A stretch of DNA of 25,262 nucleotides. It comes from a virus. The DNA lies in IMG/VR virus record IMGVR_UViG_3300037502_001740, positions 1-25,262 of that record; one strand, written 5' to 3'. Position numbers and translations under genes: made by a program. Each line of letters begins with the position of its first letter. Positions within the stretch are counted from its first letter, which is position 1. Under the pieces are notes generated by a model. It was given only the letters and a program-made list of their open reading frames with translations. It did not search any database and had not been told where the DNA came from. Below are positions 7,756-25,262 of the stretch, one piece after another.

Positions 7756-8682
7756 TTATATCCTCTTTGTGTTAATTCGCTTAATCATATCTGCGATTGT
7801 TTCACTATTTACTACAGTATATCTACCGTCATAAAATTGTGGTTCTTGAAAATCAACAAATTCTTCGTTTGTATCGTCTATCCAAAATATCAAATCTGGA
7901 TTCAAGATAGTTCTTTGCTCTTCTAAAGGACACACTTGATTGATAAACGTAATATCATTGTCCGCACTATTTCTTGCCATTGTTAGTAATCTATGTGTAT
8001 GACGTAATCTGCCGCCTTCAGTATAGTCGATATCTTTATGCTTGACTCTTTGTTCATAGCTGTGTAATGCTATAGAGTTTTCAAAGTGCTTGGCTAATTC
8101 ATCAACTACTTGCTTCCTACTTGAAGAAGGTTTGCCCATAACTAAAACTCTAAAGTGTCTATCTGTAACCAATCTGTAGTATTGTACTAAGTTAGAGTCA
8201 AGTGCGTGAAATACCCATGGTCTAATAAATACACCTTGATTGGGTTCTAACAGTACATTAGTGTGTAAGTCCCATTCAAATAAGTTTCTATAATTAAAAT
8301 GATAACCTTCTAATGCTGTTTTAGCGTCTATTTCACCTTGCTTGTTTTTGTGATGAAATAAGTTTAATGTATTCTTTTCTAGTGCTACGATAAAACACCA
8401 TTCGTTTAATGAATCAAAATTTTCAAAGTGAATAATATTGTTGAAAGGCTTACGAAAGATTCCAGAATTTTTATGTTCAACAATTACTCGCTCACCCAAT
8501 ACTTTACTTAAAATAGGCTCTACTCCACCTAGAACCATATTAAAGTTTTCTAGTTCGTAACCATAGTCTTTTTCCGAAAATCTTACATCACTAACTGCTG
8601 CTACACATCTTTCTACATCGCCTGGAGGAAAGAATCCATCAGCATGTAACATTTTTACCATTGGTCTATTAGATGCTTTCAC
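7756..8682 (-). CDS. Jelly-roll (2OG-oxygenase-like) protein with degenerate APS-kinase-like P-loop domain
   Basis: A 308-aa protein in two parts. Residues about 10-172 look like a double-stranded beta-helix domain, with aromatic/His segments N-L-F-H-H-K near 107-112 and F-I-R-P-W-V-F-H near 152-159, reminiscent of 2OG-Fe(II) or cupin folds. Residues about 176-305 resemble adenylylsulfate kinase-like P-loop proteins, but the Walker A position reads G-K-P-S-S-S-R-K-Q (183-191), lacking the second Gly and the canonical Lys-Ser/Thr, so nucleotide binding is doubtful. The start is a GTG at 8682, backed by GGAG 7 bases upstream; it overlaps the Mrp gene by 14 bases. A role in sulfate activation for the nearby sulfotransferase is possible, but the broken P-loop argues against ordinary kinase activity. 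Confidence 0.6.
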   Translation of the reverse strand: MKASNRPMVKMLHADGFFPPGDVERCVAAVSDVRFSEKDYGYELENFNMVLGGVEPILSKVLGERVIVEHKNSGIFRKPFNNIIHFENFDSLNEWCFIVALEKNTLNLFHHKNKQGEIDAKTALEGYHFNYRNLFEWDLHTNVLLEPNQGVFIRPWVFHALDSNLVQYYRLVTDRHFRVLVMGKPSSSRKQVVDELAKHFENSIALHSYEQRVKHKDIDYTEGGRLRHTHRLLTMARNSADNDITFINQVCPLEEQRTILNPDLIFWIDDTNEEFVDFQEPQFYDGRYTVVNSETIADMIKRINTKRI

Positions 8683-9430
8683 TAATTTTCTCCGCTATTG
8701 TTTTATAAATTTCACTGATTTGATTGTTATCAAATGCTATAGGTTTACCTTGATCTGCGTTTATTCTTATTGTAGTTTGTAGAGGTATCTTACCTAATAC
8801 ATGTGTATTGTACTTTTCACTTAAATTAACTGCGCCATTTTCACCAAATATATGATCTATATTACCGCAATGATTACACAAGTAACCACTCATGTTTTCT
8901 ACAATACCTAATATTTTAATATTACGCTCTATAAACAATTCTATACCTTTTTTACAATCAAGTAATGCTACATCTTGCGGTGTAGTTACTATAACTGCTT
9001 TAGCGTTTGGTAATAACTCGCAAAGTGATATTTGTATATCACCTGTACCTGGAGGCATATCTATAACAAGATAGTCTAATTCTCCCCAATATGTGTTTAA
9101 AAGTAAGTTCTTTAATGCTACTGTAGCCATTGGACCCCGCCAACTAACTGCTTGATCATCTCTGATTGTACTAGCAATAGACATTATTTTTAAACCATAT
9201 GCTTCAAAAGGCAAAGTATATTTCATGTCTTCAGTAAGATTATATGGCTGATTGTTTTCTAGACCAAACATCATAAACTGACTGGGACCGTAAATATCAG
9301 CATCAAACACTCCAACACTAAAGCCTTGATTAAACAAAGCTGCTGCTAAGTTTGCTGCTACTGTGCTTTTACCCACACCACCTTTACCAGATGATACTAA
9401 TATTATGTTTTTTATTTGTGCTATATTCAT
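8669..9430 (-). CDS. Mrp/NBP35/ApbC-type iron-sulfur carrier P-loop ATPase
   Basis: A 253-aa SIMIBI-class ATPase. The deviant Walker A S-G-K-G-G-V-G-K-S is at residues 14-22, the switch I D-A-D-I-Y-G-P-S at 43-50 and the D-M-P-P-G-T-G-D motif at 124-131. The C185-x-x-C188 pair is where Mrp/NBP35 dimers hold a transferable 4Fe-4S cluster. Many bacterial Mrp proteins carry an extra N-terminal MIP18-like domain; this one lacks it and is the short form. GAGG lies 9 bases before the ATG. Immediate neighbours are a 2OG-Fe(II) oxygenase upstream and a jelly-roll/P-loop protein downstream. Its likely job is cluster delivery, but no obvious Fe-S client is encoded here. MinD/ParA-like partition proteins are less likely given the CxxC. 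Confidence 0.9.
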   Translation of the reverse strand: MNIAQIKNIILVSSGKGGVGKSTVAANLAAALFNQGFSVGVFDADIYGPSQFMMFGLENNQPYNLTEDMKYTLPFEAYGLKIMSIASTIRDDQAVSWRGPMATVALKNLLLNTYWGELDYLVIDMPPGTGDIQISLCELLPNAKAVIVTTPQDVALLDCKKGIELFIERNIKILGIVENMSGYLCNHCGNIDHIFGENGAVNLSEKYNTHVLGKIPLQTTIRINADQGKPIAFDNNQISEIYKTIAEKISESI

Positions 9431-12336: not shown

Positions 12337-12956
12337 TTTATGAATATCAAATCCGATGCTACTTGTTTCATTTTAACATAACCTAAACCGGCTAAAAAGT
12401 GTATAATAGTTTCTGGTGGTATATTGTATTTTTTACTATGTCCCATCCACTCTACTACAATCGCAGGAGAACATTTTTTGATCGTGTTTAAAGCGCCCAT
12501 TAAAGCAAACATTTCATAACCTTCAGTATCTAAGTGAATACAATCTATAGTATCTAAACCTAAACTGTCTATGGTTATTTGTGGAATAGTTCCTTTATCT
12601 TTAACAAACCCTGTACCACAGTTGTTAGTTTCTACATTAGTTAAACTTATAGGTTCAGCAAAGCAACCTAACGCTGCTTGATACAATAATATATTATCAT
12701 TGTTTATTGTGTTTAGTGATAAACATTTAAAGTTAATCGTATCAGGTTCACATGCGATTACAGTTTGAAAGGTTTCAGCAAACTTTTTAGCATACACGCC
12801 CACATTTGCGCCAGCATGTACAATAGTGCGAGTTTGTTTACATGCTGCTACTACTTCATTAACTGAATAAATTTCACCATGAGACCATGCTTGACATACA
12901 GTGTCGGTTATTGGCCAATACAAGCCATCACTTCTTTTTTCTATTTCTGTTCTCAT
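12333..12956 (-). CDS. FkbM-family SAM-dependent methyltransferase
   Basis: I place the start at the ATG at 12956, because it overlaps the sulfotransferase stop as ATGA; an in-frame TTG nine bases upstream is less likely. The product is 207 aa. The SAM motif V-H-A-G-A-N-V-G-V-Y is at about 46-55, the acidic E-P-D following strand 2 near 70-72, and the FkbM hallmark I-H-L-D-T-E-G-Y-E near 139-147. FkbM enzymes O-methylate hydroxyls on sugars, polyketides or other natural products. Flanked by a sulfotransferase and glycosyltransferases, it probably methylates the glycan built by this operon. Confidence 0.88.
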   Translation of the reverse strand: MRTEIEKRSDGLYWPITDTVCQAWSHGEIYSVNEVVAACKQTRTIVHAGANVGVYAKKFAETFQTVIACEPDTINFKCLSLNTINNDNILLYQAALGCFAEPISLTNVETNNCGTGFVKDKGTIPQITIDSLGLDTIDCIHLDTEGYEMFALMGALNTIKKCSPAIVVEWMGHSKKYNIPPETIIHFLAGLGYVKMKQVASDLIFIK

Positions 12957-13726
12957 TTGCGCCAAACTTCCAAGTCGTGATACTTGTTTAAAATGTCAGG
13001 TGGCAAAATATAATTTCTAGTTCTGTGTTCTACACGCTTTCTAACTTCATGTAGTTTAATACCAATTTCTTGATCATATTCGTCCCAAGATGCTTCTACA
13101 TTTTCAAAGTCATGTTCAAAATAAGGCTCGTCAATAAAGTTATAAAGTGCTCGCATCATGTCTTGAGGCTTTTTAGTAAGTTGATCATATTCTAACAGAA
13201 ACAACATGTTTTTTTCTGGACCAGTAATTGCTTGTTTTATACCAACATAAGGAAAACCAACTACGCCTTTATCTTCCATTAGCATTTCAGCGCGTGAATA
13301 TACTGTACCAGATAAGCCACCAGTAACTGTATTTGTACTAAAAGGATTTCGTCTGTGCGCTAACTCAAAGCTATCTAATACCCAATTAATATCTCTTACA
13401 CATACAATAAATTTGGATGCGGGGTAAATTTCTTTTACTACTCCAGTTAAATAAGTCCAAGCACGATTTGTGTTAAAAATAACAGGCTTGTCTACGTCTT
13501 GATAGTAACCATCAAACAGTGATTTAGTAATGTTCTTTCTTCGTTGAATAGGAACTTCACTTTTCATGCCTGGCGAATCTTGTGATGCTTCTATGACACC
13601 TTTTACTAGATTAGCTAATGGATCAGTAATAGAAGCATGAAATCTAGGATTTTGTTTTAATATAGAAGTTAGTAGTGTAGAGCCTGAGCGGGGTAAACCG
13701 GTTATAAAGTGATATTGTTTGTTCAT
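12953..13726 (-). CDS. PAPS-dependent sulfotransferase family protein
   Basis: A 257-aa sulfotransferase-fold protein. The 5'-phosphosulfate loop G-L-P-R-S-G-S-T is at 10-17 and the 3'-phosphate-binding segment V-C-V-R-D-I-N-W-V-L-D-S at 108-119, with R111 as the key residue. It would transfer sulfate from PAPS to a hydroxyl, most likely on a carbohydrate or peptide. Sulfotransferases of this kind occur in several marine T4-like phages. It overlaps the TPR-glycosyltransferase (ATGA) upstream and the FkbM methyltransferase (ATGA) downstream. PAPS would have to come from the host unless the degenerate APS-kinase-like protein nearby is active. Confidence 0.88.
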   Translation of the reverse strand: MNKQYHFITGLPRSGSTLLTSILKQNPRFHASITDPLANLVKGVIEASQDSPGMKSEVPIQRRKNITKSLFDGYYQDVDKPVIFNTNRAWTYLTGVVKEIYPASKFIVCVRDINWVLDSFELAHRRNPFSTNTVTGGLSGTVYSRAEMLMEDKGVVGFPYVGIKQAITGPEKNMLFLLEYDQLTKKPQDMMRALYNFIDEPYFEHDFENVEASWDEYDQEIGIKLHEVRKRVEHRTRNYILPPDILNKYHDLEVWRK

Positions 13727-15078
13727 TTGTTTTCCATTAATTTTAAAACTTCTTGTTTAACTTGACTAAGAGGTTCATGCCAATCTCTTACTTTCTTTTG
13801 TTTGTGTACTTGAAAGTTGCTACCATACCAAGGAGTAGTTGTGTCTTTTCTTGATGTTGACCAGATATAATATTCAGCTATAGGTACAATAACAAAACAA
13901 GTTTTTCCTATTGCACCAGCAGCATGAACTAAACTTGTACAGCTACTTATGACACAATCCATTTGATCTATAAAATCTAGTGTATCTTCCCAAGAGTTTA
14001 TTCTATCGCCTAAGTCAATACAGCCCTCGTGATTTACCTCTTTGTCGATATAGTAAATTTCAGCATCTTGGGGCATATAGCTTAGCATAAGTTCTAGCGG
14101 TATCTTACGATATTCATCTTGTGAAAAATAAGGATTACCTGAACACTTAATACCAATCTTAAACTTATTACTTTCTATTTTGTTTTTAGAGTTTCTTAGG
14201 GGTGTTAAGTAAGGACCGCGCCATAGTTTATCTTCAGTTAAGTTTAAGTAACCAGGTAAACTCATCATTGGAGTCCACAGTTGTTTTCTGTCAATAGAAT
14301 AAGTTTCTGTGATAACTTCGTAACCATTTCTGCGAAAAAGATTAACCGTGTCTTCACGATATTTTGACCATGTAGAATATAATATAGGCTTCATGCCTAA
14401 ATCTTTAATATGATCAAAAAATCTTATGTTAATTATTTCATCACCAATACCACCTTCACCATCAACATAAATTGTTCTACCAGGCTGAATGATACCAGTC
14501 CATTTAGTCATACCAAACGCTTCTTCAAATCTACCATTTTTTGGTTTGATAGATTCCATAAACGCTAAAACACCTTCGGCTATTTTACCTTCCCTAAGCA
14601 TTTTACCCGAAAGAGCATTACGCATTGCTTGTGCTTTTTCTGGATGCTTTTCAGCTAATTTCATTAGCATGTCTTCAGAAGTTTTTCTATCACCTAAGAG
14701 TGCTATATTAAACGCTTTTTGTGTTTGAGTTTCAAAATCATCAGGTGTTAGCTTTAGATTTAACTCAATATAAAAAAGAGCTTTTTCTGGTTGATTTAAA
14801 GCATTGTAAGCTTTGTAGAGATTAGCGCGGGCAATATAAAGCTGGTCACCGGTTTCGGCTTTCGAGTAAGCAGCTTCAGCACACTTTAAATAAAGCGGTC
14901 TGTGTTCTGCTTTTAGTGACAAGTAACCAAGAGTATCAAAGTCTGCTATAGTTTCTGCTCGCTTAAAATACATTTCTAACATTTCAAAAGCGATTTTACG
15001 CTTTTCGTTAGAGAGCAAATCCATTACTACAGTAGTTAAATCTTGTATAGTAAATTCTTTATTCTTTGATGACAACAA
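13723..15078 (-). CDS. TPR-repeat protein with GT9/GT41-like glycosyltransferase domain
   Basis: A protein of about 451 aa. Residues about 25-190 are helical repeats of TPR type (A-x-x-x-Y-x-A-L-N-Q-P-E-K-A-L, then a G-D-R-K-T-S-E-D-M-L repeat). Residues about 200-445 form a GT-B half-pair with the loop D-G-E-G-G-I-G-D-E at 206-214 and a late C-V-I-S-S-C-T-S-L-V-H-A-A-G motif, the GT9-type donor site. TPR plus GT-B enzymes include protein O- and N-glycosyltransferases, so a protein acceptor is plausible. The start is unclear: TTG at 15078 or 15075 overlaps the upstream gene by about 20 bases, and the first ATG (15024) has no ribosome site. The stop overlaps the sulfotransferase start (ATGA). 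Confidence 0.82.
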   Translation of the reverse strand: MLSSKNKEFTIQDLTTVVMDLLSNEKRKIAFEMLEMYFKRAETIADFDTLGYLSLKAEHRPLYLKCAEAAYSKAETGDQLYIARANLYKAYNALNQPEKALFYIELNLKLTPDDFETQTQKAFNIALLGDRKTSEDMLMKLAEKHPEKAQAMRNALSGKMLREGKIAEGVLAFMESIKPKNGRFEEAFGMTKWTGIIQPGRTIYVDGEGGIGDEIINIRFFDHIKDLGMKPILYSTWSKYREDTVNLFRRNGYEVITETYSIDRKQLWTPMMSLPGYLNLTEDKLWRGPYLTPLRNSKNKIESNKFKIGIKCSGNPYFSQDEYRKIPLELMLSYMPQDAEIYYIDKEVNHEGCIDLGDRINSWEDTLDFIDQMDCVISSCTSLVHAAGAIGKTCFVIVPIAEYYIWSTSRKDTTTPWYGSNFQVHKQKKVRDWHEPLSQVKQEVLKLMENK

Positions 15079-15604
15079 GCTTCACCCACAATTCTTCAAT
15101 AATATTATTATGCTGTTTTAGATATGCTTCTACTTCTTCGCGTGGCTTACCAACAAATTGATCTTTAAAGTCTTTAGAAGGTATATAGTCCCAATCTAAA
15201 ATTTCAAAATCAACATCAAAGTAAAAACCAAGCCTAGAACTTGCTGCTTGTTGTTCTTCACATAGTCTGTTGTGTTTTTTACTGAATAATAGCAATCCGC
15301 CTACTGTAATGGGTCTACGATGTGTTGGGTCGTCATAAAAGTAATCGTGTCTGTGATGTGGAACTCTTATATCTATAGTAGCTCCATGCTTACAAACTCT
15401 GTATAACTCTTTTAAACAGTTGAAATAACCTTCACCCAAATGTTCTAAAACATGGTGTGCTACTACTACTTCTACTGAGTTATCTGAAAAGGGAAAAGTG
15501 TCTGTTTCTAAATTAAAGCAATAATCTGGGTTGTTTAACTTGTCATAGTCACAAGTTACAAACCCTTCTATTTTAGTTGAACCTGCTCCAATATTGATTT
15601 TCAT
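15059..15604 (-). CDS. Class I SAM-dependent methyltransferase, first gene of the glycan operon
   Basis: A 181-aa methyltransferase-11-like protein. The SAM loop I-N-I-G-A-G-S is at 3-9, the acidic C-D-Y-D following strand 2 at 18-21, and the H-H-V-L-E-H-L motif at 50-56. The second half is rich in His, Asp and Tyr (P-H-H-R-H-D-Y-F-Y-D-D-P-T-H-R-R), a pattern seen in phage and LPS-operon methyltransferases. It is the first gene after the consensus sigma70 promoter and has AGGA 9-10 bases before the ATG, so it should be the first cistron of that transcript. The substrate is probably a sugar or lipid-linked intermediate. Confidence 0.85.
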   Translation of the reverse strand: MKINIGAGSTKIEGFVTCDYDKLNNPDYCFNLETDTFPFSDNSVEVVVAHHVLEHLGEGYFNCLKELYRVCKHGATIDIRVPHHRHDYFYDDPTHRRPITVGGLLLFSKKHNRLCEEQQAASSRLGFYFDVDFEILDWDYIPSKDFKDQFVGKPREEVEAYLKQHNNIIEELWVKLVVIKE

Positions 15605-15638: not shown

Positions 15639-15657
15639 TAATGTTATGATATGTCAA
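15622..15657 (-). promoter_or_regulatory. Consensus sigma70 promoter for the glycan operon
   Basis: On the minus strand, TTGACA (15657-15652), a 17-base spacer and TATAAT (15634-15629) form an exact match to the bacterial sigma70 consensus. The predicted start of transcription is near 15622, about 18 bases before the methyltransferase ATG. The -35 box overlaps the stop codon of the last propeller gene. Such a strong host-type promoter is typical of early phage genes, while the propeller genes upstream should be late. Confidence 0.85.
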
Positions 15658-17000
15658 TACTTTCGGATACCTAAACTAGAAGCCTGTCCTGCACTTACAC
15701 CACACCAATCTGTAAATCCACCAACAACTGAGACAGGTGATGATCTAACTGTTCCAGTATTATCACCTAATTGCCCGTCCGCATTACGACCCCAACCCCA
15801 AGCAGTGCTGTTTTGTCTGACAGCAAGTGAATGACAACCGCCTGCACTTATTTGACACCAATCTGTAAATCCACCTACGACTGAAACAGGTGATGATCTG
15901 TTTGTTCCAGTATTATCACCTAATTGGCCAGAACTATTTATACCCCAAGCCCAAGCAGTGCCATTCTGCCTTACTGCTAGCGAGAAACAACCCCCGCCGC
16001 TTACTTGACACCAATCTGTAAATCCACCGATGACTGAAACAGGGGAAGATTTATTTACTACTGTATTATCACCTAATAATCCACATGCACCGCAACCCCA
16101 ACTCCAAGCTGAACCGTTTGTTCTTACAGCAAGAGAATGTAAGCTTCCTGCACTGATCTGACACCAATCTGTAAAACCACCTACGACTGACACGGGTGAT
16201 GATTTACTTACTGTAGTATTATCACCCAATCTACCACAACAGTTGCTCCCCCAGGCCCAAGCCGTGCCATCTTGTCTTACTCCTAATGAATGACATTCAC
16301 CTCCGCTTAATTGACACCAATCAGTGAAACCACCTAGTACACTTACAGGTGATGATTTATTTGCTACAGTGCCGTCTCCCAATTTACCGCATTGTCCGTT
16401 ACCCCAGGCCCAAGCTGTGCTGTTTTGTCTTACAGCGAGTGAATGAGTTTGACCAGTACTAATTTGGCACCAATCAGTAAATCCGCCCACAACTGAAACA
16501 GGAGAGCTTCTAGCTATCGCAGTGTTATCACCTAATCTACCTTCACCATTATCACCCCAACCCCAAGCTGTACCATTACTTCTGATCGCAAGTGACTGCT
16601 GGAAGCCTGCACTCATTTGACACCAATCAGTGAAACCACCTACTACTGAAACAGGTGAGGATCTATTTGTTGTTGAGTTGTTACCTAACTGACCTGCACT
16701 GGCGCATCCCCAAGCATATATATCCCCGGCAATATAGTCTTGTCGTAAAACACGGTTATCTAGTGTCATCCAACATCCCACGCCAGCTACAACTGGAATA
16801 CACAGTGATTCCACAAAGAAAACTGTACCAACTGAAATAGTGTTAGCAGCTAAATCAGGTAAGTCACAAGTTTCTGCTACTGGTATAGAACGATTTACAG
16901 AAACATCATTTGTTTCTGCTGCTAATATAACCATTTCAGTTATATCTGAACTTGAAGTTAAGTTATCTATACAAGTTTGTATTTCTTGACAAGTTGGCAT
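15654..17000 (-). CDS. RCC1-type seven-bladed propeller protein 6 (N-terminal type C)
   Basis: A 448-aa protein. Residues 1 to about 95 are a non-repeat N-terminal module: a short Cys-containing helix region, then L-P-D-L, a V-F-F-V-E-S-L strand and W-M-T-L-D. Seven RCC1-type repeats of about 51 aa follow, each built as W-x-W-G, a variable loop, G-x-L-G-D, S-S-P-V-S-V-V-G-G-F-T-D-W-C-Q, S-A-G-x-x-x-S-L. Seven blades should close into a beta-propeller. The N-terminus resembles that of the 473-aa paralogue. The last blade reads D-W-C-G-V-S-A-G. No repeat contains an enzyme motif. I infer a virion adhesin or fibre-attached binding head. One base separates it from the preceding paralogue, and its stop overlaps the -35 box of the downstream promoter. 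Confidence 0.85.
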   Translation of the reverse strand: MPTCQEIQTCIDNLTSSSDITEMVILAAETNDVSVNRSIPVAETCDLPDLAANTISVGTVFFVESLCIPVVAGVGCWMTLDNRVLRQDYIAGDIYAWGCASAGQLGNNSTTNRSSPVSVVGGFTDWCQMSAGFQQSLAIRSNGTAWGWGDNGEGRLGDNTAIARSSPVSVVGGFTDWCQISTGQTHSLAVRQNSTAWAWGNGQCGKLGDGTVANKSSPVSVLGGFTDWCQLSGGECHSLGVRQDGTAWAWGSNCCGRLGDNTTVSKSSPVSVVGGFTDWCQISAGSLHSLAVRTNGSAWSWGCGACGLLGDNTVVNKSSPVSVIGGFTDWCQVSGGGCFSLAVRQNGTAWAWGINSSGQLGDNTGTNRSSPVSVVGGFTDWCQISAGGCHSLAVRQNSTAWGWGRNADGQLGDNTGTVRSSPVSVVGGFTDWCGVSAGQASSLGIRKY

Positions 17001-17001
17001 T

Positions 17002-18363
17002 TTATATACTCTGTAACGGAATTGTTGTTATTGTTCTACCCATAGACTGTAGACATCCTGCACTTACTTGAGCCCAAGTCGTAAATCCCCCTACTACAGA
17101 AACAGGTGATGATTTATTCGCCGCCGTATTGTCACCTAATCTACCAGAACCTCCTGCTCCCCAAGCCCAAGCTGTACCATTTTGCCTTACTCCTAGCGAA
17201 TGCTGTCCGCCTCCTGATACTTGACACCAATCTGTAAATCCCCCTACGACTGAAACAGGAGATGATCTGTCTGTAGTAGCATTAATACCTAATCTACCTA
17301 GAGCGCCGCCTCCCCAAGCCCAAGCTGAACCGTTTTGTCTTACTGCGAGTGAAAAATCATTACCTGCCGAGACTTGACACCAATCGGTGAATCCGCCTAC
17401 GACAGATACAGGTGATGATTTGTTTACTGTAGTATTGTCACCTAATATACCAGTTGAACCTAACCCCCAAGCCCAAACTGAACCGTTTTGTCTTACTCCT
17501 AGTGAAAATCTACACCCTCCTGATACCTGACACCAATCAGTAAATCCCCCTACTACTGATACAGGTGATGATTTTGATACTGTAGTACTGTCACCTAACA
17601 TACCACATAGACCTGATCCCCACGCCCAAGCTATTCCATTAGTTCTGACAGCAAGCGAGTGACAAGAGCCTGCACTAATTTGACACCAATCAGTAAAACC
17701 ACCCACGACTGATACAGGTGATGATTTACTAACAGTAGTATTATCACCTAATTGACCGCAATTATTACATCCCCAGGCCCAAGCTGTACCATTTTGGCGA
17801 AGAGCCACTACATGTGATCCTTCGTTATTGGTTGATACTCCAGTCCAATCAGTAAAACCACCTATAACTGATACAGGTGATGATTTATCTACTGTAGTAT
17901 TGTCGCCAACTTGCCCGACATTATTACAGCCCCAGGCCCAAAGAGTTCCCGATGTTCTCACTCCTAACCCAGTATTTCTACCCATTGATATCGATTTCCA
18001 ATCAGTAAATCCCCCTACTACTGAAACAGGAGATGATTTAGATACTGTCGTATTGTCTCCTAATGCACCAGAAGTTGCTGCTCCCCAACTCCAAATATCA
18101 CAACGAATAGCATGTGGTGTGCTTGAAAAATCATCACTCCATATTCCGCAAACAGCATAATAATATTTTGTTTGATCAGTTACATATACCATTCTGCCAT
18201 TGTAAGTAGTAGCGTTAGGAAGTAAAGCACAGCAAGCAACACTAAAAACTGGTTGACATAAAATTGTTAATGCGCTTTCAGCCGAGCAGCATTGTACCGG
18301 AGTTAAACCGCCAGTAGTTAAAGCACAGCATATTTTGTCAATTAAGTTTTGTGAGCTAATCAT
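17002..18363 (-). CDS. RCC1-type seven-bladed propeller protein 5 (N-terminal type A)
   Basis: The start is the ATG at 18363, with GGA about 10 bases upstream, giving 453 aa; a TTG twelve bases earlier overlaps the previous stop and is less likely. The N-terminal module (about 90 residues) is strikingly Cys-rich, with three C-C pairs and V-F-S-V-A-C followed by G-R-M-V-Y-V-T and W-S-D-D-F. It closely matches the module of the 446-aa paralogue. Seven RCC1 blades follow. Blade 2 has an enlarged loop (S-T-N-N-E-G-S-H-V) and blades 1, 2 and 7 lack the usual D-W-C cysteine. The C-terminus (R-T-I-T-T-I-P-L-Q-S-I) departs from its paralogues. A late structural or adhesin role is inferred. Confidence 0.85.
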   Translation of the reverse strand: MISSQNLIDKICCALTTGGLTPVQCCSAESALTILCQPVFSVACCALLPNATTYNGRMVYVTDQTKYYYAVCGIWSDDFSSTPHAIRCDIWSWGAATSGALGDNTTVSKSSPVSVVGGFTDWKSISMGRNTGLGVRTSGTLWAWGCNNVGQVGDNTTVDKSSPVSVIGGFTDWTGVSTNNEGSHVVALRQNGTAWAWGCNNCGQLGDNTTVSKSSPVSVVGGFTDWCQISAGSCHSLAVRTNGIAWAWGSGLCGMLGDSTTVSKSSPVSVVGGFTDWCQVSGGCRFSLGVRQNGSVWAWGLGSTGILGDNTTVNKSSPVSVVGGFTDWCQVSAGNDFSLAVRQNGSAWAWGGGALGRLGINATTDRSSPVSVVGGFTDWCQVSGGGQHSLGVRQNGTAWAWGAGGSGRLGDNTAANKSSPVSVVGGFTTWAQVSAGCLQSMGRTITTIPLQSI

Positions 18364-18367
18364 GATG

Positions 18368-19789
18368 TTATCCAAGATTTCTTATAGCAAGTGATTGAGA
18401 ATATCCAGCTGATACCTGACACCAGTCATTGAATCCACCTATGACAGACACAGGAGAAGATTTATTTACGGTAGTGTTATCGCCTAGCCTACCAATACAT
18501 CCGCAGCCCCAACCCCAAGCTGAACCATTTTGTCTCACTCCAAGTGAATGACCGCTACCTGCACTTACCTGACACCAATCAGTGAATCCACCGACCACTG
18601 AAATAGGTGAAGATTTAGCTACAGTAGTATTATCACCTAACCTACCTTGACTATTAGATCCCCATGCCCAAGCTGTCCCGTTTTGTCTTACTCCAAGTGA
18701 GTGAACAGCACCAATACTTACCTGACACCAATCCGTGAAACCACCTACTACTGAAACAGGTGAGGATCTATTTGTTGTTGAGTTGTTACCTAACATGCCG
18801 ACTCCGCCGCCATTATATCCCCAAGCCCAAAGAGTGCCATTTTGTCTTACCGCCAATGAAGACTTATCTCCGGCTGATATCTGGCACCAATCAGTAAATC
18901 CCCCAACTACAGACACAGGTGAGGATTTATTTACTGTAGTGCCGTCTCCTAATTGACCGGGGCCGCCGCAACTATTACAACCCCAAGCCCAAGCTGTACC
19001 GTTTTGCCTTACAGCAAGAGTAAAATTTGTATTGAATATACTAGCACTTACTTGACACCAATCAGTAAAACCTCCTACCACTGAAACCGGCGAAGATCGA
19101 TTCGTACCGGTGTTATCACCTAGATTGCCGCTAGCATTGAACCCCCAAGCCCAAAGAGTGCCGTTTGTTCTTACACCTAATGAAAATCCCGTAGTCGCGC
19201 CACCGAAACCGCCAGCTGTTACCTGACACCAATCAGTGAAACCACCTACTACTGAAACGGGAGATGATGTATTGTTAGTGTTATTAGTACCTAATGCTCC
19301 GTTGCCGCCTGCACCCCAAGCCCAAAGCGTGCCGTTTGATCTTACTGCCATTGTGTGGGAGTAAGCGGCCGATACCTGACACCAGTCATTGAATCCACCT
19401 ACTACTGATACAGGTGAGGATTTGTTTACTGTAGTATTATCACCTAATCTACCTGAACCATTGCACCCCCAACCCCAAACTTGCCCAAAAACAGTATCAG
19501 TTCTTATTGTAACTCCATCTAATGTAAGCCATTTACCGTTAGAACTAATAACTATAATACCTAACGATTGAACAAAGTAAACCATGCCATCGGGTACATT
19601 AGGGTTACCATATTGTAAGTTTGGTAAACTATCAACATCTGCTGATACAATTATATTGATATCACTTAAATCAACACCAGATAAAACATAAGCCAGCACA
19701 TCATCAGGAGAATATTCTACTAAGTAATATAATCTTGCCAGTTGTTCATTGTATCTGGCTTGTATGTCGCTGGTATTTACTTGCGGCAT
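18368..19789 (-). CDS. RCC1-type seven-bladed propeller protein 4 (N-terminal type C)
   Basis: A 473-aa protein, the longest of the set. The N-terminal module (about 105 residues) begins with a helix (I-Q-A-R-Y-N-E-Q-L-A-R-L-Y-Y-L), then D-S-L-P-N-L, M-V-Y-F-V-Q-S-L-G-I and W-L-T-L-D-G, matching the 448-aa paralogue. Seven blades follow. Blade 2 (A-G-G-F-G-G-A-T-T-G-F) and blade 3 (S-A-S-I-F-N-T-N-F) have lengthened loops, and blades 4 and 5 have lengthened first loops (C-N-S-C-G-G-P-G, Y-N-G-G-G-V-G). The start overlaps the stop of the 214-aa gene by one base (TAATG). A T4-late-type motif lies about 80 bases upstream inside that gene. Confidence 0.86.
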   Translation of the reverse strand: MPQVNTSDIQARYNEQLARLYYLVEYSPDDVLAYVLSGVDLSDINIIVSADVDSLPNLQYGNPNVPDGMVYFVQSLGIIVISSNGKWLTLDGVTIRTDTVFGQVWGWGCNGSGRLGDNTTVNKSSPVSVVGGFNDWCQVSAAYSHTMAVRSNGTLWAWGAGGNGALGTNNTNNTSSPVSVVGGFTDWCQVTAGGFGGATTGFSLGVRTNGTLWAWGFNASGNLGDNTGTNRSSPVSVVGGFTDWCQVSASIFNTNFTLAVRQNGTAWAWGCNSCGGPGQLGDGTTVNKSSPVSVVGGFTDWCQISAGDKSSLAVRQNGTLWAWGYNGGGVGMLGNNSTTNRSSPVSVVGGFTDWCQVSIGAVHSLGVRQNGTAWAWGSNSQGRLGDNTTVAKSSPISVVGGFTDWCQVSAGSGHSLGVRQNGSAWGWGCGCIGRLGDNTTVNKSSPVSVIGGFNDWCQVSAGYSQSLAIRNLG

Positions 19790-20433
19790 TATTCTTCCAA
19801 GTTATTTTCTGGTTCTATGATTACAATAGATAGTAATTCTTGTTTAGTTTGAGATTGATCTATTTGGTTATTTATATTTAATTCCCAATCAAAACACTGT
19901 TGTATATACTGAGCGCCGGCTTGTACACACAAACCTAAATCAGTTTTAGTTAGTGTTAGCCAAGTTTCTGGAAATTTCCAATTTACTGTGTCTGAATCAC
20001 TCATTAACAAATATTTTTGAACAAAAATATCTCTTGCGCCGCGATTAGTATCAATAGTTACTATATGATCTTGAATAGTAGCTGTTGTACCTTTAACTTC
20101 TCGTTTATATCTTTCTTGTGCTGCTAATTGTTTTAAGTTGTATCTAGCCGATTCAATTGGCGTATCGTGAACTTCATAATTAGCAATAGCTTTTGTTTCA
20201 GTGATATCCCAAAGCGGACCATAATAATATTCTACTAATGCGTTTAGTTCTGGTCTGACTTCTTCTACCTGCATGATCTTAGCATGATCATCAATTATTA
20301 TGGGTAAATCGTTTGGCGCTGTCCTTGGAAGAGAATATCTTATTCCCTTGCGCTCTAAAGCACCCTGAAACATACCGCGGTTCCAATTCATTGGACCTAC
20401 TAAAACTCTGTTATCATAAATTACTGCGTACAT
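19789..20433 (-). CDS. DUF4376-like tail-fibre-associated protein in the middle of the propeller array
   Basis: A 214-aa protein without RCC1 repeats. Residues about 1-85 form a beta-rich N-terminal part (Y-A-V-I-Y-D-N-R-V-L-V-G). Residues about 95-190 fit the DUF4376 pattern seen in phage tail-fibre and fibre-assembly proteins: A-R-Y-N-L-K-Q-L-A-A-Q-E-R-Y, I-V-T-I-D-T-N-R-G-A-R, then a Trp/Ala-rich helix and A-G-A-Q-Y-I-Q-Q-C-F. The strong AGGAGA ribosome site and the 35-base gap upstream make it the start of a translational unit inside the array. A fibre component or assembly chaperone is the best guess. The DUF call is from pattern memory, so family certainty is moderate. Confidence 0.65.
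   Translation of the reverse strand: MYAVIYDNRVLVGPMNWNRGMFQGALERKGIRYSLPRTAPNDLPIIIDDHAKIMQVEEVRPELNALVEYYYGPLWDITETKAIANYEVHDTPIESARYNLKQLAAQERYKREVKGTTATIQDHIVTIDTNRGARDIFVQKYLLMSDSDTVNWKFPETWLTLTKTDLGLCVQAGAQYIQQCFDWELNINNQIDQSQTKQELLSIVIIEPENNLEE
19869..19876 (-). promoter_or_regulatory. Possible T4-type late promoter (TATAAATA) before propeller 4
   Basis: The minus strand reads TATAAATA at 19876-19869, identical to the T4 late promoter core, about 80 bases before the 473-aa gene. The octamer lies inside the coding sequence of the 214-aa gene (I-N-N-Q-I-D region) and such octamers arise by chance in AT-rich DNA. It would suit separate late expression of the three downstream propellers. 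Confidence 0.35.
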
Positions 20434-20455
20434 GTTGTTTATCTCCTAATATTCT

Positions 20456-20463
20456 TTATTTAG
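20456..20463 (-). promoter_or_regulatory. Possible late promoter (CTAAATAA) in the 35-base gap before the DUF4376-like gene
   Basis: The minus strand reads CTAAATAA at 20463-20456, one base off the T4 late core TATAAATA in its first part. It lies in the widest noncoding gap of the adhesin block (20434-20468), just upstream of an AGGAGA ribosome site (20447-20442) and the ATG at 20433. The placement is better than chance would suggest, but the leader would be only about 16 bases. Confidence 0.45.
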
Positions 20464-20468
20464 TGTTT

Positions 20469-21848
20469 TTATACTTGTGGTGTACTTCTTAAACCAATAG
20501 AATGATAACCACTCCCTGACACTTCACTCCAATCAGTAAAACCCCCAACTACGGATACTGGTGAGGATCTTGATACTGTAGTACCGTCACCTAACCGCCC
20601 TAAATTATTAGAACCCCAAGCCCAAGCGGTACCATTAGTTCTTACTGCAAGTGAATGCCTATAAGCGGCTGCTACTTGGCACCAATCAGTAAATCCTCCT
20701 ACTACTGACACAGGTGATCTTTTTGATACTGTAGTGTTGTCCCCTAATCTACCGTATGTTCCCGCCCCCCAAGCCCAAGCCGTACCGTTTTGTCTTACAC
20801 CCATACTGTGTTGAGACGCGGCTGACACTTGACACCAATCTGTAAACCCACCCACAACTGATACCGGTGATGATTTTTTTGATATAGTGTCGTCACCGCC
20901 TTTACCGTAATCACCTTCACCCCAAGTCCAGGCTGTACCATTAGTTCTTACTGCAAGTGCATGACCAGAGCCATTACTTATTTGGCACCAATCAGTAAAC
21001 CCGCCCACCACTGATACAGGTGAGGATTTGTTTACTGTAGTATTATCACCTAATCTACCGTCGCCTCCCGCACCCCAAGCCCACACCGCACCATTTGTTC
21101 TTAACCCAAGTGAGCTCCACGCGCCCGCTGATACTTGGCACCAATCAGTAAAACCTCCAACTACGGATACTGGTGATGATCTATTCGTTGTAGTACAGTC
21201 GCCTAATGAACCGTAACAGTTTTGACCCCAAGCCCAAGCGGTACCATTTGTTCTTACACCAAGGGAGAATCGGTTTTTTCCAGCTGATACTTGACTCCAA
21301 TCAGTAAAACCACCAACTACGGATACCGGAGATGATCTAGAAGTTACGGTATTGTCCCCCAATTGACCGCAATTATTGTATCCCCAAGCCCAAGCTGTAC
21401 CATTAGTTCTTACCGCTAGTGAAAATTCTTGATACTGCTGAGAGCCCCCTGCTGATATTTGACACCAATCAGTAAAACCACCAACTACTGATACTGGTGA
21501 TGATTGACAAGCTGTACAGTTATTTCCTAATGGACCATTAGAGCCCATCCCCCAACCCCAAATTGTGTTAATATTAGGTAAGGCAGGTGCGATAGTTGCC
21601 CACGATGTGCTGTTACTAAAATACAATCGTTCTTCATCAGTAACAAATACTAACCAGCCCCCACTTGAAGCAGCAGCAGGTAAGCTTGCGAAATCAGCTA
21701 CAGTTCTTATTTGCCCCATGTTTAAAGCTTGAATAGCTTTTGCTAATTGTAAGTAATATAGTGTTGATGAAGTGCCATCTGTTGTGGCTTCTGCGGCTGC
21801 GTTGTTTACAGCGGTTTGTAATTGTATTTGTAAGTTATTAATGTTCAT
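20469..21848 (-). CDS. RCC1-type seven-bladed propeller protein 3 (N-terminal type B)
   Basis: The start is the ATG at 21848, giving 459 aa. It overlaps the preceding stop as ATGA, and the first residues (M-N-I-N-N-L-Q-I-Q-L-Q) match the start of the 443-aa paralogue (M-D-I-T-N-L-I-I-Q-L-Q). An upstream ATG at 21884 with an AGGAGG in front is coding sequence of the previous gene, not a start. The N-terminal module has a helical part, then A-S-L-P-A-A and L-Y-F-S-N-S-T-S-W-A-T-I. Seven RCC1 blades follow. Blade 1 has a lengthened loop (G-G-S-Q-Q-Y-Q-E-F) and blade 5 an unusual G-K-G-G-D-D. A virion adhesin role is inferred. Confidence 0.87.
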   Translation of the reverse strand: MNINNLQIQLQTAVNNAAAEATTDGTSSTLYYLQLAKAIQALNMGQIRTVADFASLPAAASSGGWLVFVTDEERLYFSNSTSWATIAPALPNINTIWGWGMGSNGPLGNNCTACQSSPVSVVGGFTDWCQISAGGSQQYQEFSLAVRTNGTAWAWGYNNCGQLGDNTVTSRSSPVSVVGGFTDWSQVSAGKNRFSLGVRTNGTAWAWGQNCYGSLGDCTTTNRSSPVSVVGGFTDWCQVSAGAWSSLGLRTNGAVWAWGAGGDGRLGDNTTVNKSSPVSVVGGFTDWCQISNGSGHALAVRTNGTAWTWGEGDYGKGGDDTISKKSSPVSVVGGFTDWCQVSAASQHSMGVRQNGTAWAWGAGTYGRLGDNTTVSKRSPVSVVGGFTDWCQVAAAYRHSLAVRTNGTAWAWGSNNLGRLGDGTTVSRSSPVSVVGGFTDWSEVSGSGYHSIGLRSTPQV

Positions 21849-23176
21849 GAGTCTACAAAATTCCTTATGGCTAATGTATACCATTTTCCTCCTGAAACAC
21901 TATACCAATCATTATATAACTGTACCGATACAGGAGAAGATTGGTTAGTTGTACCTCCATCACCTAAACTACCGCAACAATTGGATCCCCAAGCCCAAGC
22001 TTGACCATTTGTTCTTACACCCAACGAATGTTGTTCACCGGCTGAAATTTGACACCAATCAGTATAACCACCTACAACTGAAACAGGTGAGGATCTAGAG
22101 GTAACAGTATTTTGTCCCAATTGTCCTCTGTCATTAGCACCCCAAGCCCAAACTGTACCGCTTGATCTTATAGCTAACGAATGACAAGCACCTGCGCTTA
22201 TTTGGCACCAATCAGTAAATCCACCCACAACAGAAACAGGTGATATTTTTGATACAACAGTATTATCACCTATTTGACCTTGAACATTACAGCCCCAACC
22301 CCAAGCCGTGCCATTCTGCCTTACTCCCAATGAATGACAACAACCTCCACTTACTTGGCACCAATCAGTAAATCCTCCTACGACTGAAACAGGGGAAGAC
22401 CTGGCTGTAGCACTGTTATCACCTAATCTACCTTGACCATTATACCCCCAACCCCAAGCCGTGCCGTTAGTTCTTACGCCTAATGAATGAGCCTGCCCGC
22501 CTGATACTTGACACCAGTCGGTAAAACCACCGATAACTGAAATAGGTGATCTTTTTGATACTGTAGTGTTGTCACCTAATCTACCATTGATGTTATATCC
22601 CCAACCCCAAGCCGTGCCGTTAGTTCTTACTCCCAATGAATGTAATCCTGCGCTGCTTGCTGCTACTTGGCACCAATCAGTGAATCCACCCACAACCGAA
22701 ACTGGTGAAGCTCTACTTGTTATAGAGTTGTCGCCTAACTGACCTTGACCATTAAATCCCCAAGCCCAAGCCGTACCATTCTGTCTTACTCCAAGTGAGT
22801 GATACCCTGCACTTACTTGGCACCAATCGGTAAATCCCCCTACTACCAAAATTGGAATAGAACAATCTGCTACAAAACTACCATTACCCAATCTTCCAAA
22901 TGCATTCACTCCCCAACTTCGGGCTGTTTTTTCTATTATATAATCTATAGTGTCTATAGTAGTCCATGTAGTGCCATTACTATAATAAATTCCCAGTCCC
23001 CTGACATAGTACATATAACCATTAGAAGCAGAAGCGGCTGGTAAACTTGATATACTATCTATATAATTTACTTGACCGGTTTTTAATAATTCAATACTTT
23101 TAGTTACAGCCAACTGGTTATAAGTTAAATCATTAACTTTAGCTTGTAATTGAATGATAAGATTAGTAATATCCAT
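21845..23176 (-). CDS. RCC1-type seven-bladed propeller protein 2 (N-terminal type B)
   Basis: A 443-aa protein. The N-terminal module (about 88 residues) has a helix with I-Q-L-Q-A-K-V-N, then S-S-L-P-A-A-S-A-S-N-G-Y-M-Y-Y-V and I-Y-Y-S-N-G-T-T-W, a layout common in phage fibre and baseplate-wedge appendage proteins. Seven RCC1 blades follow. Blade 1 is divergent (W-G-V-N, S-I-P-I-L-V-V) and blade 7 lacks the G-G-F-T segment (V-Q-L-Y-N-D-W-Y-S-V). Blade 2 has a lengthened loop. Blade 3 shares a 65-base identical stretch with blade 6 of the 446-aa paralogue, evidence of recombination. It lies three bases downstream of that gene. Confidence 0.87.
   Translation of the reverse strand: MDITNLIIQLQAKVNDLTYNQLAVTKSIELLKTGQVNYIDSISSLPAASASNGYMYYVRGLGIYYSNGTTWTTIDTIDYIIEKTARSWGVNAFGRLGNGSFVADCSIPILVVGGFTDWCQVSAGYHSLGVRQNGTAWAWGFNGQGQLGDNSITSRASPVSVVGGFTDWCQVAASSAGLHSLGVRTNGTAWGWGYNINGRLGDNTTVSKRSPISVIGGFTDWCQVSGGQAHSLGVRTNGTAWGWGYNGQGRLGDNSATARSSPVSVVGGFTDWCQVSGGCCHSLGVRQNGTAWGWGCNVQGQIGDNTVVSKISPVSVVGGFTDWCQISAGACHSLAIRSSGTVWAWGANDRGQLGQNTVTSRSSPVSVVGGYTDWCQISAGEQHSLGVRTNGQAWAWGSNCCGSLGDGGTTNQSSPVSVQLYNDWYSVSGGKWYTLAIRNFVDS
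22521..22585 (-). repeat. 65-base identical repeat, copy 1 (propeller 2, blade 3)
   Basis: Identical to 23400-23464 in a different gene. It encodes the G-R-L-G-D-N-T-T-V-S-K-R-S-P-I-S-V-I segment. Most other blade pairs differ at several synonymous positions over this length. Confidence 0.9.
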
Positions 23177-23179
23177 TCT

Positions 23180-24520
23180 TTAAAACCCGCAACTTTTTCT
23201 TATAGCTAAACTATGTGCGCAACCCGCCGATATATACCACCAATCTGTATATCCACCTACGACAGAAACAGGTGAAGATTGATCTACTGTATTACCATCC
23301 CCTAATCTACCATTTAAATCAAGCCCCCAAGCCCAAGCTGTGCCACTTTGTCTTACAGCTAGTGAATGAGATTCACCAGCTGAAATTTGACACCAATCAG
23401 TAAAACCACCGATAACTGAAATAGGTGATCTTTTTGATACTGTAGTGTTGTCACCTAATCTACCTTCACCATTATCACCCCAAGCCCAAGCTGTACCGTT
23501 TGTTCTTACCCCAAGTGAGTGACACGAACCTGCACTTACTTGACACCAATCAGTAAATCCCCCCACTACTGACACGGGTGAGGATTTATCGTTTATAGTA
23601 TTGTCACCTAATCTACCGGAAGAGCCTTCACCCCAGGCCCAAGCTGTACCATTTTGTCTTATAGCTAGTGAATGAGATTTACCAGCTGAAATTTGACACC
23701 AATCTGTAAATCCACTTACTACTGACACGGGTGAGGATTTGTTTACTATAGTATTGTCACCTAATCTACCTTGACTATTTAATCCCCAAGCCCAAGCAGT
23801 GCCGTTTTGTCTTATTGCTAAAGAAAATTCTTCACCGCCGCTTATTTGACACCAATCTAAAATTCCTATTACTGACACAGGAGAAGATTTATTAACAGTA
23901 GTGCCATCACCTAACATACCACATGTTCCTCTCCCCCAAGCCCAAGCAGTGCCGTTTGTTCTTACCGCAAGTGAATGAAGCGAGCCGGCGCTTATTTGAC
24001 ACCAATCTGTAAATCCACCTACTACTGACACGGGTGAGGATTTGTTTACTATAGTATTGTCACCTAATCTACCTTGACCATTATCACCCCAAGCCCTAGC
24101 TGTACCGTTAGTTCTTAATCCAAGTGAAAATTGGTTACCGGCTGATATCTGACACCAATCTGTAAATCCACCAACGACTGAAACAGGCGAGGATTTAGTT
24201 GCTGCTGTGTTGTCACCTATTTGACCTTCATTATTTCGTCCCCAGCCCCAAGCTGAACTGTTTAAACCTTTAAAATCATCTATCCAAGCCGCACCGTTAC
24301 TAAACAAATACTTACATTCATTTGTAATATAAACAAATCTGCCAGTATTATCACTTGCTGTGGGTAAAGAGGCTTGACAAGCAACACTAAAAACTATGCT
24401 TGCTGGTAAGGATATTCCGCAACTAGAACCAGTTAATTGTAATAATTCTAAAGATGTTAAATCAGTGCGTGTAGCCGACTGATTAACGCAATTGATTAGA
24501 TTATTAACACCAAAGGTCAT
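23180..24520 (-). CDS. RCC1-type seven-bladed propeller protein 1 (N-terminal type A)
   Basis: A 446-aa protein, first propeller after the fibre gene, whose stop it overlaps by one base (TAATG). The N-terminal module contains F-S-V-A-C-Q-A-S-L-P, G-R-F-V-Y-I-T-N-E and W-I-D-D-F, close to the module of the 453-aa paralogue. Seven blades follow in regular 51-aa register. Blade 3 lacks one residue (V-I-G-I-L-D-W-C), blade 4 has S for G in V-V-S-G-F, and blade 7 reads D-W-W-Y. Blades 2 and 4 share an 85-base segment differing at one base. Direct translational linkage to the collagen-like fibre suggests it is a fibre-associated head or adhesin. Confidence 0.87.
   Translation of the reverse strand: MTFGVNNLINCVNQSATRTDLTSLELLQLTGSSCGISLPASIVFSVACQASLPTASDNTGRFVYITNECKYLFSNGAAWIDDFKGLNSSAWGWGRNNEGQIGDNTAATKSSPVSVVGGFTDWCQISAGNQFSLGLRTNGTARAWGDNGQGRLGDNTIVNKSSPVSVVGGFTDWCQISAGSLHSLAVRTNGTAWAWGRGTCGMLGDGTTVNKSSPVSVIGILDWCQISGGEEFSLAIRQNGTAWAWGLNSQGRLGDNTIVNKSSPVSVVSGFTDWCQISAGKSHSLAIRQNGTAWAWGEGSSGRLGDNTINDKSSPVSVVGGFTDWCQVSAGSCHSLGVRTNGTAWAWGDNGEGRLGDNTTVSKRSPISVIGGFTDWCQISAGESHSLAVRQSGTAWAWGLDLNGRLGDGNTVDQSSPVSVVGGYTDWWYISAGCAHSLAIRKSCGF
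23400..23464 (-). repeat. 65-base identical repeat, copy 2 (propeller 1, blade 6)
   Basis: The partner of 22521-22585. Identity stops sharply at both ends: g/a on the left and a/t on the right. Confidence 0.9.
23691..23775 (-). repeat. 85-base near-identical repeat, copy 1 (propeller 1, blade 4)
   Basis: Matches 23994-24078 with a single difference, at 23716 (the base behind the S/G change in V-V-S-G-F versus V-V-G-G-F). The two copies are 303 bases apart, two blade lengths minus the codon missing in blade 3. Confidence 0.88.
23994..24078 (-). repeat. 85-base near-identical repeat, copy 2 (propeller 1, blade 2)
   Basis: The partner of 23691-23775, with one mismatch. It suggests a blade-level duplication or conversion inside one gene. 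Confidence 0.88.
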
Positions 24521-25262
24521 TATTCACCTAATGCTAATATAGCTAATGTTCTAGCGTATTCGTCTATACCAAATCCAGTAGCACCAGTAGCACCAGTAGC
24601 GCCGCCGCCTCCGCCACCTTCAATAGTTATTGTAACAGCACCACTAACATTAGTAGCTACTACACCGTTTCCAACAAAGTCAAAACTTGTTACTGAGCTA
24701 GTTAATAAGTTTCCTTCATCATAAACTGCTATGTTAGCGCCTGATCCTGCTGGGCCAGTTGCACCTGTCGCGCCTTGTCCACCTATAGATATAGATGCAA
24801 AGCCAGTTTGAGCCGAACTAAAAGTAAGAGTAGTTGCGTTGGCGTTTGTAAAATTTACAACAGGATAATCATATCTACCTACAAAAGAATTTCCAGTAGA
24901 GTCTATGGGTTCTACGTTTACATATTGAACATTTAAATTATGAACTATGGTCCATACGTTTGACGCAGAGCCTTGTGTGTGAACATATGCTCCACCTAGA
25001 CTAGGTGAACCTGTAGCACCTACTGCACCCGAGTAACCGGAAGTACCAGAGAAGCCAGAAATACCAGAGAAGCCAGATATACCAGAATAACCAGAGAATC
25101 CAGATATACCCGAATAACCACTGAAGCCAGAAGTACCTTCACCTGAGTAACCACTTATACCTGAGTAACCAGAGAAGCCAGATATACCTGAGTCGCCACT
25201 AAATCCGCTTATACCTGAATAACCTGATATACCTGAGTAACCGCTTATACCAGAGAATCCTG
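24520..25262 (-). CDS. Collagen-like tail fibre / appendage protein (partial, N-terminus outside window)
   Basis: About 247 C-terminal residues are visible; the gene continues beyond the right edge. From the edge inward there are 24 Gly-X-Ser triplets (X mostly Ile, Phe or Tyr), broken once by G-E-G-T-S. A short G-A-V-G-A-T-G then leads into a globular domain with W-T-I-V-H-N-L-N and V-N-F-T-N-A-N-A-T-T-L-T-F, a pattern known from phage fibre proteins. Two short collagen-like stretches follow (G-A-T-G-A-T-G-P-A-G and a Gly run with G-A-T-G-A-T-G) and the protein ends T-L-A-I-L-A-L-G-E. This is a trimeric-fibre type architecture. The stop overlaps the first propeller gene by one base. Confidence 0.85.
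   Translation of the reverse strand, partial: GFSGISGYSGISGYSGISGFSGDSGISGFSGYSGISGYSGEGTSGFSGYSGISGFSGYSGISGFSGISGFSGTSGYSGAVGATGSPSLGGAYVHTQGSASNVWTIVHNLNVQYVNVEPIDSTGNSFVGRYDYPVVNFTNANATTLTFSSAQTGFASISIGGQGATGATGPAGSGANIAVYDEGNLLTSSVTSFDFVGNGVVATNVSGAVTITIEGGGGGGATGATGATGFGIDEYARTLAILALGE
25030..25262 (-). repeat. Gly-X-Ser triplet repeat tract
   Basis: An in-frame repeat of 9-base units encoding G-[I/F/Y]-S, often as 18-base doublets (GGTATATCTGGATTC-like). It continues beyond the right edge. Third-codon bases vary, so the tract is protein-constrained rather than freshly expanded. It is prone to length variation by slippage. Confidence 0.9.

Follow-up and report, generated by a model that had tools for sequence, protein, structure and literature searches.

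The six RCC1-type proteins encoded on a linear fragment of virus DNA of 25,262 bases (hereafter the window, meaning the whole stretch analyzed) probably serve as receptor-binding heads of a T4-like phage tail fibre, with variable faces and with their different types mounted together, a reading to which we assign a probability of roughly two in three. The tail-adhesin role is well supported by relatives of these proteins; for this phage we infer the virion location, the docking, the target binding and the physical 1:1:1 assembly.

The genes lie on the minus strand in the order collagen-like fibre gene, RCC1 genes A, B and C, a DUF4376 gene, and RCC1 genes D, E and F, with the RCC1 block at 15654-24520, where an earlier note on this DNA had placed it. 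That note described six adjacent paralogs directly downstream of a collagen-like fibre gene. The fibre gene is indeed there: the upstream gene (24520..25260, minus strand, its 5' end lost at the contig edge) matches PF01391 at 1.9e-9 and the PHROG tail fiber annotation, and its C-terminus reads DEYARTLAILALGE. The count of six genes also stands, while their unbroken adjacency does not, since a gene for a DUF4376 protein of 214 aa (19789..20433, minus strand; PF14301 at 9.9e-9; phrog_10508, tail fiber) runs from 20433 to 19789 between the third and the fourth. Each RCC1 gene, all six being on the minus strand, encodes an N-terminal module of 85-108 aa followed by a seven-bladed propeller. The modules are of type I in genes A (23180..24520) and E (17002..18375), type II in B (21845..23176) and C (20469..21884), and type III in D (18368..19789) and F (15654..17000). 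The RCC1 genes abut or overlap. The called ORF starts of two of them are probably too early, with more likely starts near 21848 for gene C (MNINNLQ...) and near 18363 for gene E (MISSQN...), because relatives begin there and most of the overlap with the preceding gene disappears.

A similar terminal peptide (D..ARTLA.LAL) ends the gene before the array in the window (24520-24570) and at loci L009, L012, L014 and L059. The bodies of these pre-array genes are unrelated despite the common C-terminal peptide, which is a possible candidate for a docking tail. Past gene F come a SAM methyltransferase (15059..15604; PF08241), a TPR-like protein (13723..15078) and a sulfotransferase (12953..13726; PF13469 at 2.4e-15), all on the minus strand, and then a run of glycosyltransferase and methyltransferase genes. 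Among 81 distinct RCC1 loci these three neighbours recur in 29, 50 and 38, respectively, and their products could act by decorating either the heads or the surface of the host. The TPR-like protein has a relative named TPR in the annotation of Synechococcus phage S-SRM01 and gave no Pfam or NCBIfam match; as it matches no family, we rejected its assignment as a glycosyltransferase. An Mrp/ApbC-like iron-sulfur carrier ATPase gene (8669-9430; PF10609 at 7.9e-92) also lies within the glycosylation block.

The number of blades and their similarity far exceed chance. A search with the Pfam RCC1 model PF00415 gave 42 matches in the window, each of them exceeding the curated cut-off, with seven in each of the six genes, which bears out the blade count that had been read from the translations; the same search of 14 control genomes gave zero matches. 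We ran AlphaFold2 on gene A with 30 related sequences and assigned genes B-F by sequence similarity. In the gene A model, which has a mean pLDDT of 86, the propeller (about residues 86-446) is mostly above 90 and the N-terminal helices (1-41) are below 50. In this prediction seven blades close into a ring, as had been proposed, giving an RCC1 propeller of the HERC2/UVR8 type: the model matches HERC2 RLD2 with Z 54.2 over 357 residues (rmsd 1.5), UVR8 with Z of about 50 and the related BLIP-II with Z 33.9. The notion that RCC1 repeats are chiefly eukaryotic has to be dropped, as hundreds of viral and bacterial stretches match. Single ORFs at three other loci (L073, L095 and L075) carry 39, 46 and 28 RCC1 blades, respectively, that is, several propellers per chain.

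The evidence for a place on the tail comes from fusions, gene neighbourhood and published proteomics. A collagen-like segment and seven blades are fused in one chain at L014:6409-7860, and a 2284-residue fibre at L055:5564-12418 combines seven RCC1 blades with a C-terminal Peptidase_S74 (S74) chaperone. In the T7-like phages PollyC and SeaP2 a fibre-type N-terminus precedes an RCC1 propeller at the usual place of the T7 fibre gene; this N-terminus scores 23 bits with the Pfam T7 tail domain, just below the cut-off, and up to 226 bits with PHROG tail families. The gene immediately before the array carries S74 at three loci (L024, L016 and L022), and the RCC1 genes of S-SRM01 follow a fibre and baseplate wedge genes. 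Virion mass spectrometry has detected six of the eleven RCC1-like proteins of phAPEC6 (PMC7247149, Table 1) and the RCC1-like GAP_001 of GAP32 (PMC5259590); these proteins, from Asteriusvirus/Rak2-like phages, are very divergent relatives. The T4 capsid protein gp23 was matched in 11 of 11 relative genomes, in one of them below the cut-off, the window covering a part of the genome that excludes this region. A search for psbA as a host clue found none in eleven contigs, and no result pointed to the marine origin that the earlier note had implied. The adhesin role proposed earlier from the neighbouring fibre gene is thus supported in relatives and carried over to this phage as a probable one.

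The binding surface would be a ring of variable residues. Five positions in each blade, within WG-X-n-XX-G and G-XX-H, have an entropy of 3.1-3.7 bits over the set of 42 blades, against mostly less than 1.5 elsewhere, and many framework positions are invariant. This gives 35 hypervariable positions per propeller, and the five-residue sets are distinct in all 42 blades. Among the window blades pN/pS is 0.97 at the five positions and 0.29 in the framework (framework dS about 1.2), a comparison that is partly circular because the columns were picked by variability on the same blades, so two independent tests were run. In blades of L009, L012, L014 and L015 these five positions are again the top-ranked ones; they are also top, with one or two other columns intermixed, at L016, L018, L020, L024 and L025, and the match is weaker at L022 and L026. 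Between gene F and its L013 ortholog, 27 of 35 hypervariable residues have changed compared with 55 of 319 in the framework (p 9e-13), and the corresponding pN/pS values are 0.59 and 0.21, the former of which is no demonstration of positive selection. A pair of loci tried as a test of recent evolution (L010 and L011) was set aside as uninformative because of its near-identity: the shared 21 kb has two differences, apart from the first approximately 140 mismatched bases.

A tendency to vary at the same five positions is also seen, more weakly, in the bacterial RCC1 proteins nearest to the query (median ratio 2.4, compared with 3.3 in the phage proteins), which makes the pattern in part a feature of the fold itself. 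As far as can be read from these sequences, the RCC1 fold varies at this ring in general, and the phage proteins show this in a sharpened form. We mapped the salt-bridge residues of the UVR8 dimer (PMC5091643) onto the blades by an alignment anchored at the W285A mutation, all but R234 and R338, which the alignment did not place. E43, D44, D96, R146, E182 and R286 coincide with the five variable positions and D107 falls outside them, against a chance expectation of about 0.7 of seven; the neighbouring chromophore residue W285 is also on a variable position. By this analogy the variable ring appears to be the counterpart of the UVR8 dimer-contact face. The earlier suggestion of multi-specific binding heads gains support from a hypervariable ring on such a face.

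Of the 208 residues at hypervariable positions 31 are cysteine, against about 18 expected from base composition; cysteine also occurs within the framework motif DWCQ and is much rarer in several other lineages. We rejected diversification by a DGR, as the codons are not of the NNY type (A or G is the third base in 72 of the 208 hypervariable codons). No reverse transcriptase was found in 10 of 11 relative contigs, which are possibly incomplete, and one distant RCC1 phage contig, G011 (L023), carries one at 226500-227144.

The N-terminal modules and the propellers have different histories. In three phages (the window, L009 and L012) the N-modules cluster by gene position, none of 200 shuffles being as good, with identities of 0.34-0.70 at the same position and averages of 0.27-0.28 between other positions. 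The propellers of the same three phages are not clustered by position (0.57-0.70, compared with means of 0.61-0.66), and the six L012 propellers form a clade of their own with support of 99/97. The longest identical DNA tracts between paralogs of the same genome measure 65, 60 and 50 nt in the window and 84 nt in L009, compared with 35 nt or less between genomes. Such long tracts, together with the clustering of propellers within genomes, are the expected outcome of an exchange of heads inside the genome, and the sequence comparison thus indicates that propellers are homogenised inside each phage and that N-modules are conserved by gene position. Among the phage records searched, the same N docking peptide was found only in S-SRM01, besides matches at chance level. 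A search with N-module B gave weak matches (E 0.09-0.9), some of them in collagen-like and tail proteins, which we did not use.

Three module types were recognized both by N-module profiles and in a tree made without those profiles, in which type II does not come out as a clean clade. Among relatives, the genes that could be classified comprise 16 of type I, 16 of type II and 16 of type III, plus one uncertain type III. The order I-II-III occurs once in L029, twice in L059 and three times in L031, and the search for the same array in other phage contigs that had been suggested for this DNA recovered the six-gene order of the window (I, II, II, DUF4376, III, I, III) in L009 and L012. L014 and L015, the two ends of one contig, read I, I, II and II, DUF4376, III, III, an array that is complete only on the assumption that the genome closes at that point. 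Short N-peptides mark a second lineage, in which 15 loci, the isolate S-SRM01 included, have three genes each, with peptides that agree between loci according to gene position (0 of 1000 permutations). Counting only arrays clear of the locus ends, in loci of which most were among the 80 best matches to a single query, hence not an unbiased sample, we found 35 interior arrays with more than one gene: 25 with three, two with six and one with nine, besides three with two and four with four. Fifteen further interior arrays have one gene, some being fused propellers. The DUF4376 gene is present in 35 of the 81 distinct RCC1 loci and precedes a type III gene in most arrays. Its protein is modelled at pLDDT 92, with weak fold matches to prefoldin-like hairpins (best Z 7.4), and the place of its gene between types II and III in most arrays (I-II-DUF4376-III) hints at a role in assembly.

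The equal numbers of the three module types point to an ancestral unit of one head per kind. Because the 1:1:1 proportion is kept in arrays of three, six or nine, three different heads are likely to be displayed together, and this bears on an alternative that the earlier note had left beside joint display, namely that the six are phase-variation or recombination cassettes, one of which is expressed or mounted at a time. The exact DNA tracts of up to 65 nt common to paralogs, which suggest exchange, would suit such cassettes, but N-modules are conserved by position in three phages, the genes are coupled by abutting or overlapping, and other phages join two or more propellers in one chain. The only inverted repeat that we found is a poor one, 26 nt at 77%, on which we rejected phase inversion. 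We therefore regard use as alternatives as improbable and keep the joint-display half of that proposal. A different account of the three types is that the proteins are virion adhesins whose N-modules serve three separate sites or fibres (for example collar, sheath and baseplate), with their numbers equalised by block duplication. L031 and L059 do repeat whole I-II-III blocks, and in S-SRM01 the third RCC1 gene lies approximately 4 kb from the second; however, the orders in the window and in L014/L015 are not simple block copies and their numbers are still balanced, and we consider separate sites unlikely, if a serious candidate.

The two remaining accounts take the proteins off the tail. In Rak2-like jumbo phages, where tandem RCC1 arrays have already been reported (PMC5259590, PMC7247149), the genes were read as DNA condensation genes, so that the proteins would condense or organise DNA in the head. 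The phAPEC6 authors suggested this (PMC7247149), the family carries the name in PHROG and GenBank, and the PHROG category is DNA metabolism. Against it stand the fusions to fibre parts, the adjoining fibre and baseplate genes, a hypervariable face unexpected in a DNA packer, and the near-neutral or acidic character of the six window proteins (pI 4.9-7.5, other viral members reaching pI 9), and we give this account very little credence. The name "DNA condensation protein" is thus probably misleading. Three PHROG families (phrog_4219, phrog_7220 and phrog_16766) are filed under DNA metabolism, and phrog_4219 matches the T7-like tail fibre of PollyC over its full length. It is likewise improbable that the proteins act inside the infected cell as effectors, binding host proteins in the manner of BLIP-II or UVR8: RCC1/BLIP-II propellers are general protein binders, and the BLIP-II fold match (Z 33.9) is in keeping with this, but the fibre fusions and virion mass spectrometry of relatives and the tight linkage to fibre and baseplate genes argue for the virion.

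If the proteins are tail-fibre heads, each N-module would dock its head at a fixed place, with the closed propeller behind it, and a trimeric fibre would end in, or be accompanied by, three different heads, each with its own N-module. The ancestral set would be one head per docking kind, probably co-mounted on fibre or baseplate; this phage would carry two such sets, extra sets adding faces. The rings of variable residues would point outward and bind the cell surface, and propellers would swap sequence within the genome while the docking modules stay, so that binding faces are reshuffled without loss of assembly. Tentatively, and at somewhat less than even odds, we suggest that this is an obligate three-part adhesin with 1:1:1 docking modules, each bearing an interchangeable propeller with approximately 35 variable surface residues, that presents three, six or nine faces renewed by recombination.

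Phage RCC1 proteins are numerous and carry a DNA condensation label; should they prove to be tail heads, a sizeable class of receptor-binding proteins in T4-like phages is now misnamed and overlooked by host-range prediction. Conserved docking modules with exchangeable propellers would amount to a natural modular-binder design, the defined variable positions could make specificity comparable between phages, and the three-type rule is a sharp structural prediction that can be checked in the isolate S-SRM01. The literature searched, which left most subscription journals outside, yielded no paper in which RCC1 arrays of phages are taken for adhesins, and we met neither that reading there nor the separation of module and head, the hypervariable ring or the three-type rule.

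Like the window, the Rak2-like coliphages phAPEC6, 121Q, PBECO4, UB and GAP32 have many tandem RCC1-family genes, and we saw such an array in UB. Their sequences are very divergent and are named DNA condensation proteins; the fibre partner and the N-modules of three types were recognized in the window and its relatives. The Synechococcus phage S-SRM01 (Kyanoviridae) has the order S74 fibre, RCC1, DUF4376-like, RCC1, TPR, ... RCC1, sulfotransferase, but it has a single trio with short N-peptides of 33-44 aa; the terms searched in the S-SRM01 paper led to no discussion of its RCC1 genes. In the T7-like Pseudomonas phages PollyC and Ppr_SeaP2 the tail fibre gene includes an RCC1 propeller, but as one fused fibre with no array and with divergent blades (26-28% identity). 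UVR8, the HERC2 RLD and BLIP-II have the same fold as the window propellers, but they are single cellular proteins, each with a fixed partner, where the window has a phage array. T2-type gp38 adhesins place a separate variable head, of one type and with glycine-rich loops, on a trimeric fibre, and the heads proposed here would follow the same working principle with an unrelated fold.
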